64,000 nt of DNA, taken from positions 50,681 to 114,680 of the forward strand of contig JADFDI010000009.1 of NCBI GenBank assembly GCA_018262985.1. Direction: 5' to 3'. The number at the start of each line of letters is the position of its first letter. Positions within the stretch are counted from its first letter, which is position 1. Position numbers and translations under genes: made by a program. Below, piece by piece: positions 21,129 through 26,772 of the stretch. Source of the DNA: Spirochaetota bacterium (GTDB lineage Bacteria > Spirochaetota > Spirochaetia > Treponematales > UBA12059). A model generated the notes under the pieces. The model worked only from the letters and a program-made list of their open reading frames with translations. It was not told the origin of the DNA and did not search any database.

Positions 21129-22508
21129 CTAGAAGCTGCCCGAGCCGACGGTGATGGAGAGCGACGCCGACGCCGAGGGCTTGCCGGGACCGGTAGGACC
21201 CATGGTGAACTCGTCACCCTCCTCGCCGAAGGTGAAGCGCGCCGAGAGGCTGGCGGACAGGTAGTCGAAGAAGCGGTACGAAAGCTGCGGCAGCGCGAAG
21301 CCCGAGAGGTCCGAGAGGTTCGCCATCGCGGTGATCGAGGCCGAGAGGTCCTCCGCGCCGAAGAGCTCGCCGAGCGAGACCGAGGCCGCCGCGTAGTGCC
21401 GCGACCAGCGGAGCGAGTCGAGGGCAAAGAGCGATTCGTCAGGAAAGGTGCCTAGTTCTACGAAAGCGGTCTGAGCTCCGTAATGCGCGAACGCCTCGGC
21501 GACCGTCGCCTCGGTCTGCGCCTCGCCGTTCCACAGGTACTGCGCCATCACCGTCAGGTTCGACTCCTGGTTCAGGTAGCTGGCGCCGAGCGTCGCGGTG
21601 GCGAAGAAGCGGTCCGGGTACTCCACGGCCTCGAATTCCAGGCCGGGAAACGCGACCGCGCGCGGTTCGAGGAAGGTGCGCTCGGAGCCGTACTTGAGCT
21701 GGGCCTCGCCGAAGACGTTGAGGTCCCAGAGCCCCGAGTTGAGCATGAGGAAGGCCGAGGGCGGGGCGTCGTACTTGTACGCGGCGGCGAGCGCGAGCTC
21801 GGTGTCGCCGAAGAAGTGCTTGGCCTTCGCGGCGTACATGATGTCCTCCGGCTTTTCGGCGCCCTTCGGGAACACCGTCCAGAGCGCGACGCTCGAGAGG
21901 GTGCGCGGTATCGGCCAGAGCGCGGTGAAGGCGAGCGGTCCCTCGCGCTCGGCGTCCGGATCCGACACGTCGATCTCCGAGAGCGACACGAGGTCGTCGG
22001 CCGGCTGGAAGAAGCGCCCGACGCCGAGGCGCAAGGGCTGCTTGCCGAAGCTGAAGAAGAGCGCGTCGTCCCGGCTGAAATTCGCGTAGAGCGCGTAGAC
22101 GGAGATGTTCGGAATCGTCGGCTCCCCGGGCGCCGCGTCGAGGGCGAAGGGATACGCGAGGTCGAGGGCCGCGTAGTAGCCCCAGTCGGATTCGGGTTTG
22201 GCCTGGAGCGTCAAGCGGCTCGAAAGGGCGGGGCTCATGGCGTAGTCGTCGTACATCGCCGACTCGAAGGCCCAGGGATCGAGCCAGGTCCACGAGAAGC
22301 CGAGCGAACCGGAGAGCCGGCCCGAGACGCGCGGGGCGTCCCACTCCAGGAACTCGGAGCGGTCGATCTCGGCCGCGTCGGCGGCCTCCTCGACCGTCTC
22401 CGGGGCGCCGAACAGGTCGTCGTCCGAAAGATCCTGAGCCGCGAGCGGCGAAACCAGGACCGCGAAAGCCACCGCGAAAATGAAACCGTACAGCGCGAAA
22501 CGCTTCAT
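21129..22508 (-). CDS. Outer-membrane beta-barrel protein encoded with a Lol-like ABC system
   Basis: About 459 residues: a signal peptide (MKRFALYGFIFAVAFAVLVSPLAAQ), a short acidic N-terminal stretch DLSDDDLFGAPETVEEAADAAEIDRSEF, then a barrel-like domain rich in alternating strands (GSLGFSWTWLDPWAF..., RLTLQAKPESDWGYYAALDLAYPF, LSARFTFGE) ending ITVGSGSF with a terminal Phe. It resembles a porin or the spirochaete barrel partner of lipoprotein trafficking machinery. It is the last gene of a five-gene minus-strand operon, 17 bp behind the LolA-like gene. Residues 28-39 are identical to a periplasmic-loop segment of the first permease of the same operon. ATG 22508 is preferred over the track's long N-terminal extension, which has no signal peptide. 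Confidence 0.8.
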   Translation of the reverse strand: MKRFALYGFIFAVAFAVLVSPLAAQDLSDDDLFGAPETVEEAADAAEIDRSEFLEWDAPRVSGRLSGSLGFSWTWLDPWAFESAMYDDYAMSPALSSRLTLQAKPESDWGYYAALDLAYPFALDAAPGEPTIPNISVYALYANFSRDDALFFSFGKQPLRLGVGRFFQPADDLVSLSEIDVSDPDAEREGPLAFTALWPIPRTLSSVALWTVFPKGAEKPEDIMYAAKAKHFFGDTELALAAAYKYDAPPSAFLMLNSGLWDLNVFGEAQLKYGSERTFLEPRAVAFPGLEFEAVEYPDRFFATATLGASYLNQESNLTVMAQYLWNGEAQTEATVAEAFAHYGAQTAFVELGTFPDESLFALDSLRWSRHYAAASVSLGELFGAEDLSASITAMANLSDLSGFALPQLSYRFFDYLSASLSARFTFGEEGDEFTMGPTGPGKPSASASLSITVGSGSF

Positions 22509-22525
22509 GGTTACCTCGTTCGATT

Positions 22526-23266
22526 CTACCGGGCGCGCTTGAGGAAGGCCTCGGTGAAGGTGTCGTCGGCGAGTTTTCCGACGGCCACGTCCGAGAGGGT
22601 CAGCTGGCTCTTCTCGCCCGTGTTGATCTCGTCGACGATCAGGATGCGCGAGGGTATCTGCTTGCCGCCCGCGCTGATGTAGCTCGGCGGGAAGCTGACC
22701 GTGCGCATGAGCCGGCCGGAGACGGAGAAGTCCTCCTCCTTGAGCACGAGCGGCTTGTCCTTGCGGACGTAGAGGCGGACGCGCTGCCAGCTGACCTCCG
22801 AGTCCTTCGACACCAGCTCGAGGATCCACACGTCGTAGGCGCCGAGCTTGCCCTCGGAGCTTTTCTCGATGTCGTAGTCGTCGGCGTAGCTCATGCGCGA
22901 GAGGTCGGAGTTGCGCGCCTCCGAGTCCTGCACGCTTTCCTTGATTGTGCTCTTGGCGAACTCCCCCGACTCGGGGTCGTAGAACCAGACGTTGTCGTCC
23001 ACCTTGAGGTAGCCCTGGCCCTTCTGGCGCTCGGGCTTGAGGAAGAGGAAGACGAATTGGTCGCGCTCGTCGCGGCGGTAGACGCGGACCTGGACGGTCT
23101 CGGGCTTCTGGCCCGGCTTCTCCGAGACGATGGTGTAGGTGGCCGTGAAGTCCTGGCCGCCGAAGTCGCCGAGCGAGTCGATCTCGCGCAGCATGGCCTT
23201 GAAATCCTGGGCGCCCGCCATCGCCACCGAGAGCGCCGCCAGGACCGATATCATCGCGCGTTTCAT
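22526..23266 (-). CDS. LolA-like outer-membrane lipoprotein-sorting protein
   Basis: A 246-residue secreted protein (signal peptide MKRAMISVLAALSVAMAGAQ). The mature part matches the LolA/LolB-fold family of COG2834 type: DFTATYTIVSEKPGQKPETVQVRVYRRDERDQFVFLFLKPERQKGQGYLKVDDNVWFYDPESGEFAKSTIKESVQDSEARNSDLSRMSYADDYDIEK and a later VSKDSEVSWQRVRLYVRKDKPLVLKEEDFS. This is an unclosed barrel that carries a lipid or lipoprotein acyl chain across the periplasm. It lies between the two permeases and the barrel protein, so the operon links an inner-membrane extractor, a periplasmic carrier and an outer-membrane component. The cargo is not known. Confidence 0.85.
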   Translation of the reverse strand: MKRAMISVLAALSVAMAGAQDFKAMLREIDSLGDFGGQDFTATYTIVSEKPGQKPETVQVRVYRRDERDQFVFLFLKPERQKGQGYLKVDDNVWFYDPESGEFAKSTIKESVQDSEARNSDLSRMSYADDYDIEKSSEGKLGAYDVWILELVSKDSEVSWQRVRLYVRKDKPLVLKEEDFSVSGRLMRTVSFPPSYISAGGKQIPSRILIVDEINTGEKSQLTLSDVAVGKLADDTFTEAFLKRAR

Positions 23267-23282
23267 GGAACCTCCAAAAGTG

Positions 23283-24593
23283 TCAGACGGCCGTGCGGAG
23301 GGCGACGGCGGGGTCGAGCTTCGCGGCGCTCCGCGCCGGGAAGAAGGCGGCGGCCAGGGTCAGGAAGGCCACGATGGCCACCTTTCCCGCGACGCGCGCC
23401 CAGTCGAGGCGGAAGCTCATGTGCCCGTTCCTGAGGATGAGGAAGAGCGGGCTGTCGAGCCCGAAGTCGATGAGTCCCACGCCGAGCATCACGAGCGACG
23501 CGACGGCGAGTCCCGCCACGGCGCCGCCGAGCGCGAGGAACAGCGCCTCGTAGAGGAAGAGCCCGCGCACCTGGCCGCGCTGCATGCCCACCGCCCGCAT
23601 GGTGCCGATCTCGCGGATGCGCTCGTACATGATGATGCGGAAGGTGTTGGTGATGCCCACCATGATGATGAGGAAGAGCACCAGGAGGATGACGAGGCTG
23701 GCGACGTCGAGCACGTCGACGATCTGCTGCACCTGGGCCAGCGCGTCGTTCAGCGTGGTGACGCGGTATTTCACGCCGGTCCAGGTCTCCTCGTCCTCGC
23801 CGCGCATCATGGCCAGGACGGGGTTCCCGCCCTCGGCGCCGGGCGCCTTGCGCTCGAAGGCCTGGAGCCGGCTCGACACCTCGGCGTGCAGGCGGTCGCC
23901 GGCCTCGTCCATGCCCTTGAGCGAGGGCAGGTAGAACGAGAGGGCCTGGTACTCGTCCGGCGCCAGGTCGAGGAGCTCGTTGACGTAGTCGCGCCCGGCG
24001 TAGGCCGAGACCGAGCCGAGTATGCCCGGATCCTTGATGACGGCGGCCACGGCGAATTCGCCGACGTTCTGCTGGCCGGAATAGGTGCGCGTCGTCACGA
24101 GCAGGCGGTCGCCGATCTCGACGCCGAGCTTGTCGGCGATGGGTTCGGGAAGGACGATGCCGTCGCGGGGCAGGTCATCGAGGCTGCCCGAGGCGAGCGC
24201 GAGCCGCTCGGCCAGGAAGGTCTCTGCCTCGAAGTCCACGCCCTGCACCGCGAGGGTCGCGGTGCGGCCGGCGAATTTGAGCGAGCCCTGGAGTCCCGAG
24301 CGCCGCGAGACGTATTTCGCCTCGATGCCCGCGGCTTCGGCGGCTTCGCGGAGCGCGGCGTCGTCGCGGATGATCTCGAGGTCGCGCCCCTTGGGGCTCT
24401 TCTCGACGCCCTCCACGAAGACGTGGCCCGCGAGCAGGTTGGAGAAATTCTCCGAGACGTTGTCGACGAAGGCGCCGGCGAAGCCGTCGATCAGGGTGAC
24501 GATCATGATGCCGAAGGCGATGGCGCCTCCGAGCAGGAAGGAGCGCCGCTTCTGGCGGCTCAGGTTGCGGAAGGCGAGCATGGCGGTCTGCAT
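23283..24593 (-). CDS. ABC transporter permease, FtsX/LolC-E (MacB-type) family, second of pair
   Basis: A 436-residue protein with the type VII ABC topology: one N-terminal membrane helix (SFLLGGAIAFGIMIVTLIDGFAGAF), a periplasmic domain of about 220 residues, and three C-terminal helices (LDVASLVILLVLFLIIMVGITNTFRIIMYERIREIGTMRAVGMQRGQVRGLFLYEALFLALGGAVAGLAVASL). The cytosolic coupling motif ERIREIGTMRAVGMQ is the FtsX-domain hallmark. Together with the other permease and the ATPase it should form a heterodimeric mechanotransmission transporter extracting lipoproteins or lipids from the inner membrane. It starts 10 bp after the preceding permease. Confidence 0.9.
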   Translation of the reverse strand: MQTAMLAFRNLSRQKRRSFLLGGAIAFGIMIVTLIDGFAGAFVDNVSENFSNLLAGHVFVEGVEKSPKGRDLEIIRDDAALREAAEAAGIEAKYVSRRSGLQGSLKFAGRTATLAVQGVDFEAETFLAERLALASGSLDDLPRDGIVLPEPIADKLGVEIGDRLLVTTRTYSGQQNVGEFAVAAVIKDPGILGSVSAYAGRDYVNELLDLAPDEYQALSFYLPSLKGMDEAGDRLHAEVSSRLQAFERKAPGAEGGNPVLAMMRGEDEETWTGVKYRVTTLNDALAQVQQIVDVLDVASLVILLVLFLIIMVGITNTFRIIMYERIREIGTMRAVGMQRGQVRGLFLYEALFLALGGAVAGLAVASLVMLGVGLIDFGLDSPLFLILRNGHMSFRLDWARVAGKVAIVAFLTLAAAFFPARSAAKLDPAVALRTAV

Positions 24594-24603
24594 GGCGGCC
24601 TCC

Positions 24604-26061
24604 TCACTCGGCCTGCATCGCGCGGACCGGCTGGACGCGGAGCGCGAGCTGCACGGGATACACGTGGGCGACCACGGAGACCGCGGTGACCATGACCAGG
24701 GACCAGAGGACCGACATCGGGTTCACCGCGGGCCTCAAGACCTTGCCGGCGAAGAGGATCTCGAGGAAGGCGTTGCCCGCCTCGATGTTCAGCGCCGAGA
24801 GCAGCCCCAGTATGCCGAAGGCGAGGGCCGTGCCGACGAGGCCGAACACGGCGGCGATGACGACGGTCTCCACCAGGAACATCTTTCGCACGAAGCCCTT
24901 CTGCGCGCCGAGGGCCCGCATGGTGCCGATCTCTCCGGTGCGTTCGATGACCGAGATGACCAGGGTGTTGGTCATGATGATGACGGCCACGACGGCCACG
25001 ATGATGATGGCGAAATTGAAGACGATGCGGACCACGTCGACGCTCTGGGCGAAGGGGCCCGCGGCGGCCTTCCAGCCCTCCGCGACGACCGGGAGGCCTT
25101 CTTCGGCGAAGCGCTGGTTGAGCTCCTTCACGACGCGCTCCGCCTGGCCCGGGCGCTCGAGGCGCGCCAGCAGGAAGTGCCAGGCGCCCGAATCGACCAC
25201 GGTGGCCGGGGCGGCCGCGGCGGGAACGCTTTCGGCCTCGGGGACGGGCTCCGGCGCGGCCGCGACGGCGAGGTCGACGGTCTCCGGCGCGCCGAAGAGG
25301 TCGTCGTCGCTCGTCGAGGCGAGCAGCTCGGTCTGCTCCGGCGCGAGCGTCACGTCCGCGTCCGTGCCGAGCGTGAGCCCCATGAGTATGCGGAGCGTGT
25401 CCGCGTCCACGTATGAAATGAACTCGGTCGCCTCGGTGTCGGCCTTGTACTCGATGAGGCCGACGAGCGGGACGGCCCGGATCTTGAAGCCGGAATTGCC
25501 CATGCCGGTCAGCACGACGTCGTCGCCGACCTTGAAGTCGATTTCGAGGTGCTCGGCCATGCGCTCCGCCTGGCGCTTGGTGAGGAGTATGCCCTCCTCG
25601 CCGGGCTCGAGCATGCGGCCTTCCACCACGACGGCGTTGTCGAACACGCGCGAGTACTCGTCGGGCACGACGCCGAACATGAGGGCGAAGCCGGTCTTCT
25701 CCGAGTCGCGCGGGGAGGCGAGGGCGAAGCCCGTGACCTGGCTGGCCACGCCGACGACGCCGTCCGCCTCCTCGAGGATGGCGCGAACCCGGTCGTAATC
25801 GGGGATGGCCGGGGTTTCCTCGCGGCCGCCCACCGACTGCACGCCGAAGAGGCTGACCGGGTCCGTCGTCTCGGCGTGGACGAAGACGTCGGCCGTGTAG
25901 TTCTCGGTGAAGGTCTTGCGGATGCCGGCCGCGGCCGTGTCCATGAAGCTGTTGCCCACGACCAGGATGACCACGCCGAGCGCGAGGAGGCCGCCGATGA
26001 TGAAGCTCTTGGCCTTGTGCTCGAGCAGGTTCCGGAGGGCTATGCGCACGAGGATGGGCAT
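24604..26061 (-). CDS. ABC transporter permease, FtsX/LolC-E family, with an insert carrying SDDDLFGAPETV
   Basis: A 485-residue protein with the same four-helix type VII layout as its neighbour (N-terminal AKSFIIGGLLALGVVILVVGNSFMDTAAAG; C-terminal FNFAIIIVAVVAVIIMTNTLVISVIERTGEIGTMRALGAQKGFVRKMFLVE...). Its periplasmic domain is longer by an Ala/Pro/Glu-rich insert at about 248-288 (STSDDDLFGAPETVDLAVAAAPEPVPEAESVPAAAAPATV). Residues 251-262 of this insert are identical to residues 28-39 of the barrel protein of the operon, but the DNA differs at synonymous sites. The ATG abuts the ATPase stop with no gap. Expected role: one half of the Lol-like permease pair. Confidence 0.9.
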   Translation of the reverse strand: MPILVRIALRNLLEHKAKSFIIGGLLALGVVILVVGNSFMDTAAAGIRKTFTENYTADVFVHAETTDPVSLFGVQSVGGREETPAIPDYDRVRAILEEADGVVGVASQVTGFALASPRDSEKTGFALMFGVVPDEYSRVFDNAVVVEGRMLEPGEEGILLTKRQAERMAEHLEIDFKVGDDVVLTGMGNSGFKIRAVPLVGLIEYKADTEATEFISYVDADTLRILMGLTLGTDADVTLAPEQTELLASTSDDDLFGAPETVDLAVAAAPEPVPEAESVPAAAAPATVVDSGAWHFLLARLERPGQAERVVKELNQRFAEEGLPVVAEGWKAAAGPFAQSVDVVRIVFNFAIIIVAVVAVIIMTNTLVISVIERTGEIGTMRALGAQKGFVRKMFLVETVVIAAVFGLVGTALAFGILGLLSALNIEAGNAFLEILFAGKVLRPAVNPMSVLWSLVMVTAVSVVAHVYPVQLALRVQPVRAMQAE

Positions 26062-26772
26062 CTAGGCCTCCGCCCCCGCGCGCTCGCGGCGGAAGTTCTC
26101 GGTGACGAGGCCGTCGCGGAGGCGCACCACGTGGTCGGCGATGTCGACGATCTTGGCGTCGTGGGTGGAGAAGATGAAGGTGGTCTCCAGGTCGCGGTTG
26201 ATCTTCTTCATGAGCTCGATGATCTGCTCGCCGGTGGCGGAGTCGAGGTTGGCGGTCGGCTCGTCCGCCAGCACGATCTTGGGCTTGGTGACGAGGGCGC
26301 GCGCGATGGCCACGCGCTGGCGCTGGCCGCCGGAGAGCTCGTTGGAGCGGTGGCCCTTCCAGTCGGAGAGCCCGACCTCCTCGATGAGGAAGTCGACCCA
26401 CTCGGCCGCCTCCTTCCTCGGCTGCCGCTTCGCGCCGAGGAGCAGGGGGAACTCCACGTTCTCGCGCACGTTCAGCACCGGAATCAGGTTGAAGCTCTGG
26501 AAGATGAAGCCGAGCGTCTCGTGGCGGAGCGTGGTCAGCTCGCGGTCGCCCAGCTTCGAGGTGGGCTTGCCCTCGATCAGCACCTCGCCGCCCGAGGGGC
26601 GGTCCACGAGGCCGATCATGTTGAGGATGGTGGTCTTCCCGGAGCCGGAAGGACCGGCGATCGAGATGAAGTCGCCCCGCTCGATGCGGAACGAGACGCC
26701 CTTGACCGCCTGCACCTCGGTCTTGCCGAGCGGGTAGGTCTTGCGGACTTCCGACAGTTCGATGATGGACAT
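26062..26772 (-). CDS. ABC transporter ATPase, LolD/MacB type
   Basis: About 236 residues, the standard length for LolD. Walker A AGPSGSGKTT, Q-loop FIFQSFNLIPVLNVRENVEFPLLL, signature NELSGGQRQRVAIARALVTKP, Walker B KIVLADEPTANLD and H-loop FSTHD are all intact; the segment FQSFNLIPVLNVRENVEFP is characteristic of the LolD/FtsE/MacB group. It is the first gene of the minus-strand operon and powers the two FtsX-like permeases. ATG 26772 is chosen because the track's 72-residue extension is Pro/Arg-rich shadow sequence before the domain begins. Confidence 0.93.
   Translation of the reverse strand: MSIIELSEVRKTYPLGKTEVQAVKGVSFRIERGDFISIAGPSGSGKTTILNMIGLVDRPSGGEVLIEGKPTSKLGDRELTTLRHETLGFIFQSFNLIPVLNVRENVEFPLLLGAKRQPRKEAAEWVDFLIEEVGLSDWKGHRSNELSGGQRQRVAIARALVTKPKIVLADEPTANLDSATGEQIIELMKKINRDLETTFIFSTHDAKIVDIADHVVRLRDGLVTENFRRERAGAEA

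Follow-up and report, generated by a model that had tools for sequence, protein, structure and literature searches.

The 64,000-nucleotide stretch of contig JADFDI010000009.1 from a Spirochaetota bacterium (here called the window) contains an operon in which two envelope proteins, an inner-membrane permease and a predicted outer-membrane beta-barrel protein, carry the identical 12-residue peptide SDDDLFGAPETV. Why should two proteins that lie in different membranes share one peptide? We find that the peptide belongs to a motif that occupies the same two positions in related systems across the phylum, and that it is probably a docking tag for a shared partner. The reading that we favor is a two-ended docking motif, through which one periplasmic partner would bind the exporter as well as the barrel in the outer membrane, with a LolA-like carrier as the likeliest partner. 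Judged from sequence comparison and structure prediction, we give this reading a probability of about 0.55.

The five genes of the operon are closely packed and all lie on the minus strand. In operon order, the genes and the two copies of the motif are as follows.

26062-26772, minus strand: ATP-binding cassette (ABC) ATPase of the LolD/MacB type; start codon set by eye at MSIIELSEVRK
24604-26061, minus strand: permease 1, FtsX-like, a relative of LolC/LolE/LolF; motif-bearing insert at about residues 236-293
25276-25311, minus strand: motif copy 2, SDDDLFGAPETV; permease 1 residues 251-262, in the insert of the large periplasmic domain before transmembrane segment 2 (TM2)
23283-24593, minus strand: permease 2 (FtsX/MacB_PCD); without the insert and without the motif
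22526-23266, minus strand: LolA-like periplasmic carrier (PF17131), 246 residues; profile match
21129-22508, minus strand: outer-membrane beta-barrel protein, 459 residues; porin/AlgE-like fold, weak DUF1302 similarity in relatives
22392-22427, minus strand: motif copy 1, SDDDLFGAPETV; barrel residues 28-39, in a disordered tail directly after the signal peptide

A conserved motif in two envelope proteins

The minus strand reads TCGGACGACGACCTGTTCGGCGCCCCGGAGACGGTC at 22392-22427 and AGCGACGACGACCTCTTCGGCGCGCCGGAGACCGTC at 25276-25311, and both translate to SDDDLFGAPETV, so that the peptide stands in the barrel and in permease 1 where the first-pass annotation had placed it. That annotation had also claimed that the codons differ synonymously, and this is correct: 30 of the 36 bases are the same and the six differences are all silent, comprising one serine codon (TCG/AGC) and third positions. 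The flanks of the two DNA copies are unrelated (15/60 and 27/60 identical). The identity over 12 residues is far from chance. For the codon pattern of DDLFG, 0.02 matches would be expected in the window and two are present; the whole 3.44 Mb genome contains seven, three of which were judged to be real coding DDLFG (the barrel, permease 1 and one lipoprotein).

Conservation was examined in two overlapping samples: 42 loci of GTDB genomes that encode a related carrier, and 40 operon regions taken from genomes related to that of the window. After merging they comprise 70 distinct systems, 57 of them with permease 1, carrier and barrel. The gene order recurs in the orthologous systems, and essentially all complete ones have an acidic-LF-acidic motif in the permease 1 insert and in the barrel tail. 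At both sites it takes the form [D/E/S]-x-[D/E]-x-(L/M)-F-(G/S)-(D/E)-(D/E). Typical pairs of permease and barrel are DADALFGEDVLVTSE with DIDSLFGDEVLVQPS (L051), NEDELFGAETLVSE with SEEDLFGAETVTET (L042) and TDSLFGGDMVDTG with EDALFSGDMVDTA (L113). A search across the phylum yielded additional, more distant systems that likewise have the motif at both sites; its sequence is degenerate in the most divergent of these (EEDIF with DDSIY, for example). The motif is present in both proteins in about 55 systems at the level of the order and in about 20 from across the phylum. Absence from orthologous permeases and barrels, which the first-pass annotation had named as the observation that would count against a shared tag, was looked for, and the motif is present in the orthologues.

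The pattern [DE]x[LMIF]F is found in 61 of 63 inserts, compared with 7.4 in composition shuffles, and in 56 of 64 tails, compared with 8.4. One of the exceptions is a contig that ends early, and most of them have the acid at a shifted position. A stricter form of the motif gives 149 matches in the 7,762 residues of the two arms and a single match in about 106,000 residues elsewhere (permease 2, LolA, and the parts of permease 1 and the barrel outside the arms). These regular expressions were composed after the sequences had been viewed, so the counts are descriptive, and cross-prediction and permutation tests provide less biased support. With a criterion score reached by at most 1 of 100 shuffles, a profile trained on barrels finds the permease motif in 47 of 63 cases, and one trained on permeases finds the barrel motif in 50 of 64. 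In whole-protein alignments the permease has 15 invariant columns and the barrel 14, and in both proteins the motif phenylalanine is among them. Among 38 permeases, F256 is invariant and D253 nearly so.

The barrel model is of high confidence from residue 60 onward, with a predicted local distance difference test score (pLDDT) of about 90 over most of its length, and it resembles porin, AlgE and MOMP barrels. Residues 19-53, which include the motif, have pLDDT below 50, and this rules out the motif as part of the barrel fold. A short conserved stretch that lies in disordered sequence and recurs in unrelated proteins has the properties of a short linear docking motif, the disorder here being modeled for the barrel tail only. 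In the permease, the profile aligns with LolF and LolE on either side of the insert, in the large periplasmic domain between TM1 and TM2. The insert falls between the segments that align with LolF residues 215 and 247. This is downstream of the position of the LolC Hook (residues 167-179 in PMC10865981), so the insert is not the Hook itself but comes in addition to the Hook site.

The two arms vary in other ways. Some systems of uncultured Treponema (L071, L076 and L077) have tandem DDLFG-type copies on both arms. Over the larger set of systems, copy number on one arm correlates with that on the other (Spearman 0.36, n 56), with clade effects still included. Most relatives' permease 1 inserts (e.g. 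L077 and L047) have, between the motif and a following GAW, another conserved segment, ILGDTSxRxxLN; it is not in the insert of the window, where the counterpart region is about 25185-25290. The barrels of L045, L053 and L122 have long tails with DPFADAF-type repeats ahead of the motif. Elsewhere, a lipoprotein of another genome (L171, G016:C4:306724) starts with CEDFFGTEDLKAI directly after its signal peptide and is a possible additional carrier of the motif, and an unrelated, apparently cytosolic protein ends at its C-terminus in SLFGDSGGSFFGDADSFFGKP (L106, G000:C17:267654) or DDFFGSDDDWDF (L175, G016:C7:24475).

Matching and joint absence of the two copies

The two motifs of a system resemble each other more than they resemble those of other systems. 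For 37 systems with LolA identity below 80%, the similarity of a permease motif to that of its own barrel is 26.9, compared with 18.6 for mismatched pairs, and the observed score is reached by 0 of 10,000 free permutations and 0 of 1,000 permutations restricted to related systems. The matching persists when only the residues that follow the core are compared (8/10,000 and 6/1,000, in 17 systems with one motif per arm) and when the relatives of the window are left out (0/10,000 and 2/1,000). An independent repeat on 13 phylum-wide systems new to the test gave 18.0 for own and 12.6 for mismatched pairs (46/10,000). One genome with two systems (G050) has a different, internally matched pair in each, NADSLFGEDVTV with DLDSLFGEEVVV and TDDELFGNGGSLVQ with TDDELFGSSESLVT. 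The picture varies among the other two-system genomes. In G033, G023 and G025, the best match within the divergent second system is not with its own partner, and in G008 the permease motif of the second system was missed by our filter. Some ancient copying could contribute to the matching within systems, although it does not account for the whole.

The insert and the tail motif are also absent together from the motif-less homologous ABC systems that we examined. A second ABC-LolA_like-barrel system of the same genome (L265, G000:C4:68500-78160) has permeases without the insert and a barrel without the tail motif, and is a negative control within the genome. Both features are likewise absent from L227, from plasmid cassettes of E. 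coli and Paraburkholderia, and from the Borrelia BBJ26-28 genes. In systems in which LolA_like and barrel genes accompany an MMPL transporter, the tail motif is absent wherever an adjacent barrel was found. In no system did we find a confident motif in one protein and none in the other, although several contigs stop before the barrel. A general outer-membrane assembly signal is disfavored because the barrels of motif-less ABC systems and of the MMPL systems have no tail motif. Taken with the fixed positions across the phylum, the invariant phenylalanine, the cross-prediction and the matching within systems, the joint presence and absence strongly supports the earlier idea of a shared tag held at the level of protein.

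Two observations concern the systems that lack the motif. In a 1.1 Mb genome (G032), a LolA_like gene adjoins an MMPL-type transporter with no ABC permease pair nearby (L222). The plasmid cassettes, of the composition ABC-FtsX-LolA_like-barrel (L152, NZ_CP060058.1, and L154, NZ_CP066077.1, on E. coli and Paraburkholderia plasmids), lie in apparent biosynthetic clusters.

Candidate readers of the motif

From these observations we infer a binding event, a reader, a cargo and a direction of transfer. The motif would be a short linear docking element with the core [D/E]-x-L-F-G, acidic flanks and a hydrophobic position thereafter. It would be displayed by two flexible arms, one the insert in the periplasmic domain of the permease of a Lol-like ABC exporter, the other the mature N-terminus of the barrel from the same operon, and both arms would bind the same site on one periplasmic partner. 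The permease arm may catch the LolA-like carrier at the exporter, where the carrier would be loaded with lipid or lipidated cargo before it crosses the periplasm. The barrel arm would then catch the carrier, placing the barrel in the receptor role that LolB has in E. coli.

Among the products of the operon, only the carrier is soluble and periplasmic, and it is encoded between permease 1 and the barrel. The LolA proteins of motif systems have extra conserved basic residues compared with those of motif-less systems: R64 (88% vs 0%), R118 (89% vs 0%) and K239 (95% vs 25% K/R), with the carrier of the window having E at position 239. A tethered AlphaFold2 model is suggestive. It was made as a single chain of the carrier and barrel of L058, whose genes are in one frame and were joined by reading through the stop codon, an artificial fusion. 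The tail of this model has pLDDT below 50 except at residues 266-271, which by manual count are the six residues DIDALF of the motif core. We consider this weak evidence for docking, and the rise could also stem from conservation or helix propensity.

Several points weigh against the carrier as reader. The charge contrast is confounded by phylogeny, since the LolA proteins of motif systems form one group in a separate clade from the motif-less ones. In partial Mantel tests, divergence of the motif follows the barrel (r 0.19; 11/1000) and permease 2 (r 0.14; 21/1000) and not LolA (r 0.02; 378/1000). LolA-like proteins also occur in motif-less systems, and the motif is therefore dispensable for carrier function in general. 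The rise at the motif in the tethered model is small (pLDDT just over 50, with a block mean of 45) and depends on the artificial tether. Because the basic residues are confounded by clade and the Mantel tests track the barrel and permease 2 and not LolA, we put the LolA-like carrier, still the likeliest reader, at just over one half. The first-pass annotation had suggested a docking tag read by the LolA-like protein. The shared tag is strongly supported at the level of protein, and the carrier as its reader is plausible, although neither modeling nor covariation proved it.

The same Mantel results would fit the exporter itself as reader, either the periplasmic domain of permease 2 or the permease pair. 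The insert of permease 1 would then be bound in cis as a placeholder and be displaced by the tail of a barrel that docks on the ABC complex. Permease 2 and the barrel are the proteins that track divergence of the motif, and permease 2 of motif systems has a smaller set of conserved basic residues that is absent from insert-less permeases. However, the effects in the Mantel tests are weak and easily swayed by phylogeny, and the tail has only about 30 residues from the last motif phenylalanine to the first strand while it would have to reach far across the periplasm. We regard this arrangement as unlikely.

It is also improbable, in our estimate, that a third periplasmic factor encoded elsewhere (an adaptor, chaperone or protease) recognizes both arms. 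The operon alone leaves room for such a factor, although none of our analyses points to one, and so short a motif does not disclose its reader. However, the two systems of G050, each with its own matched motif, are better fitted by a reader encoded with each system than by one shared factor. We searched this genome for DDLFG and D-x-[DE]-x-LF, and four relatives for [DE][DE]LFG. The matches that we examined were mainly in cytosolic proteins or wrong frames, and none of those from this genome was a further exported motif protein.

An acidic signal for sorting or surface export, comparable to the lipoprotein export signal (LES) of Bacteroidetes (SDDDD, SDDFE), is a far less credible explanation than a docking site. 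The LES of Bacteroides and Flavobacterium looks alike (PMC5080379), and here too acidic residues lie near a mature N-terminus, but the LES acts directly after the lipidated +1 cysteine of lipoproteins, whereas the barrel has a type-I-like signal peptide, the other copy of the motif is internal in an inner-membrane permease, and the motif phenylalanine is invariant, unlike the LES. Least credible of all is recent DNA copying or a chance likeness of two acidic linkers: the window pair does share most of its bases, but the unrelated flanks, the silent differences and the conservation throughout the phylum rule out copying as the source of the peptide, and the composition shuffles do the same for acidic composition alone.

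Relation to Lol transport

The assignments of the five genes (ATPase, permease 1, permease 2, PF17131 LolA_like and predicted beta-barrel) were all confirmed. The carrier matches the PF17131 profile with 132.5 bits (cut-off 30), and the structure predicted for an orthologue matches those of 3buu and other LolA proteins. A PF02687 (FtsX) domain is found in both permeases, as expected of FtsX/MacB-type (type VII) ABC permeases. For the barrel, PF06980 (DUF1302) gives weak matches in 6 of 35 relatives (best E 0.008) and none in the window protein, and a search of PDB sequences with the barrel profile gave no match.

By the tests made, the operon is not a LolCDE-LolA-LolB system, and the proposed mechanism would resemble a Lol hand-off that makes use of a linear docking element. 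Permease 1 and permease 2 score 75 and 65 bits against TIGR02212 (LolC/LolE, cut-off 362); other genes of this genome outscore both, and none passes the cut-off. The carrier belongs to PF17131, and the only PF03548 (LolA) match of the genome lies elsewhere. The last gene of the operon encodes the predicted beta-barrel and not LolB, which was not searched for elsewhere in the genome. As in E. coli, an FtsX/MacB-type ABC exporter, a LolA-fold carrier that would be engaged by one of two permeases, and an outer-membrane receptor would act in series. However, the carrier here is PF17131 and not PF03548, and the outer-membrane partner is a barrel and not LolB. The LolC Hook is the chief recruiter of LolA in E. 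coli, according to PMC10865981, whereas the motif here is a linear peptide in an insert downstream, repeated in the outer-membrane partner.

In the mouth-to-mouth LolA-LolB complexes of Xanthomonas and Porphyromonas, a hydrophobic residue of a receptor loop enters the carrier cleft and pairing is specific (PMC10368991, PMC13103446). The excerpts of these reports describe no sequence shared between donor and acceptor, whereas a peptide is shared here. The Borrelia BBJ23-29 cluster likewise combines a spirochaete ABC permease, a LolA-like carrier and outer-membrane proteins, and Lol-like export has been proposed for it (PMC13078400). However, its permease has no insert, we found no comparable acidic motif, and PMC13078400 mentions none. 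The E. coli and Paraburkholderia plasmid cassettes have the same gene order, and the E. coli barrel matches our barrel profile (62.6 bits), but they have neither the motif-bearing permease insert nor the tail motif.

To our knowledge, short linear motifs common to inner- and outer-membrane partners have rarely been described in bacteria. In open-licence full-text literature on the motif and on spirochaete Lol systems we found no account of the motif, and for the letters of the peptide the papers listed contained only unrelated text. How lipids and lipoproteins reach the outer membrane is an open question in bacteria without a known LolB, spirochaetes included. The peptide that donor and acceptor share, of which natural versions exist within one cell, singles out the barrel as a candidate receptor. 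It also yields a minimal reagent, a synthetic 12-mer, and two peptides together with one soluble protein would be enough to test the hand-off. Spirochaetes may, at somewhat less than even odds, use a linear address code, in which the same evolving peptide on exporter and barrel would be read by one site on the carrier, the barrel would be the missing LolB-like receptor, and paralogous systems would be kept apart by different, internally matched peptides.

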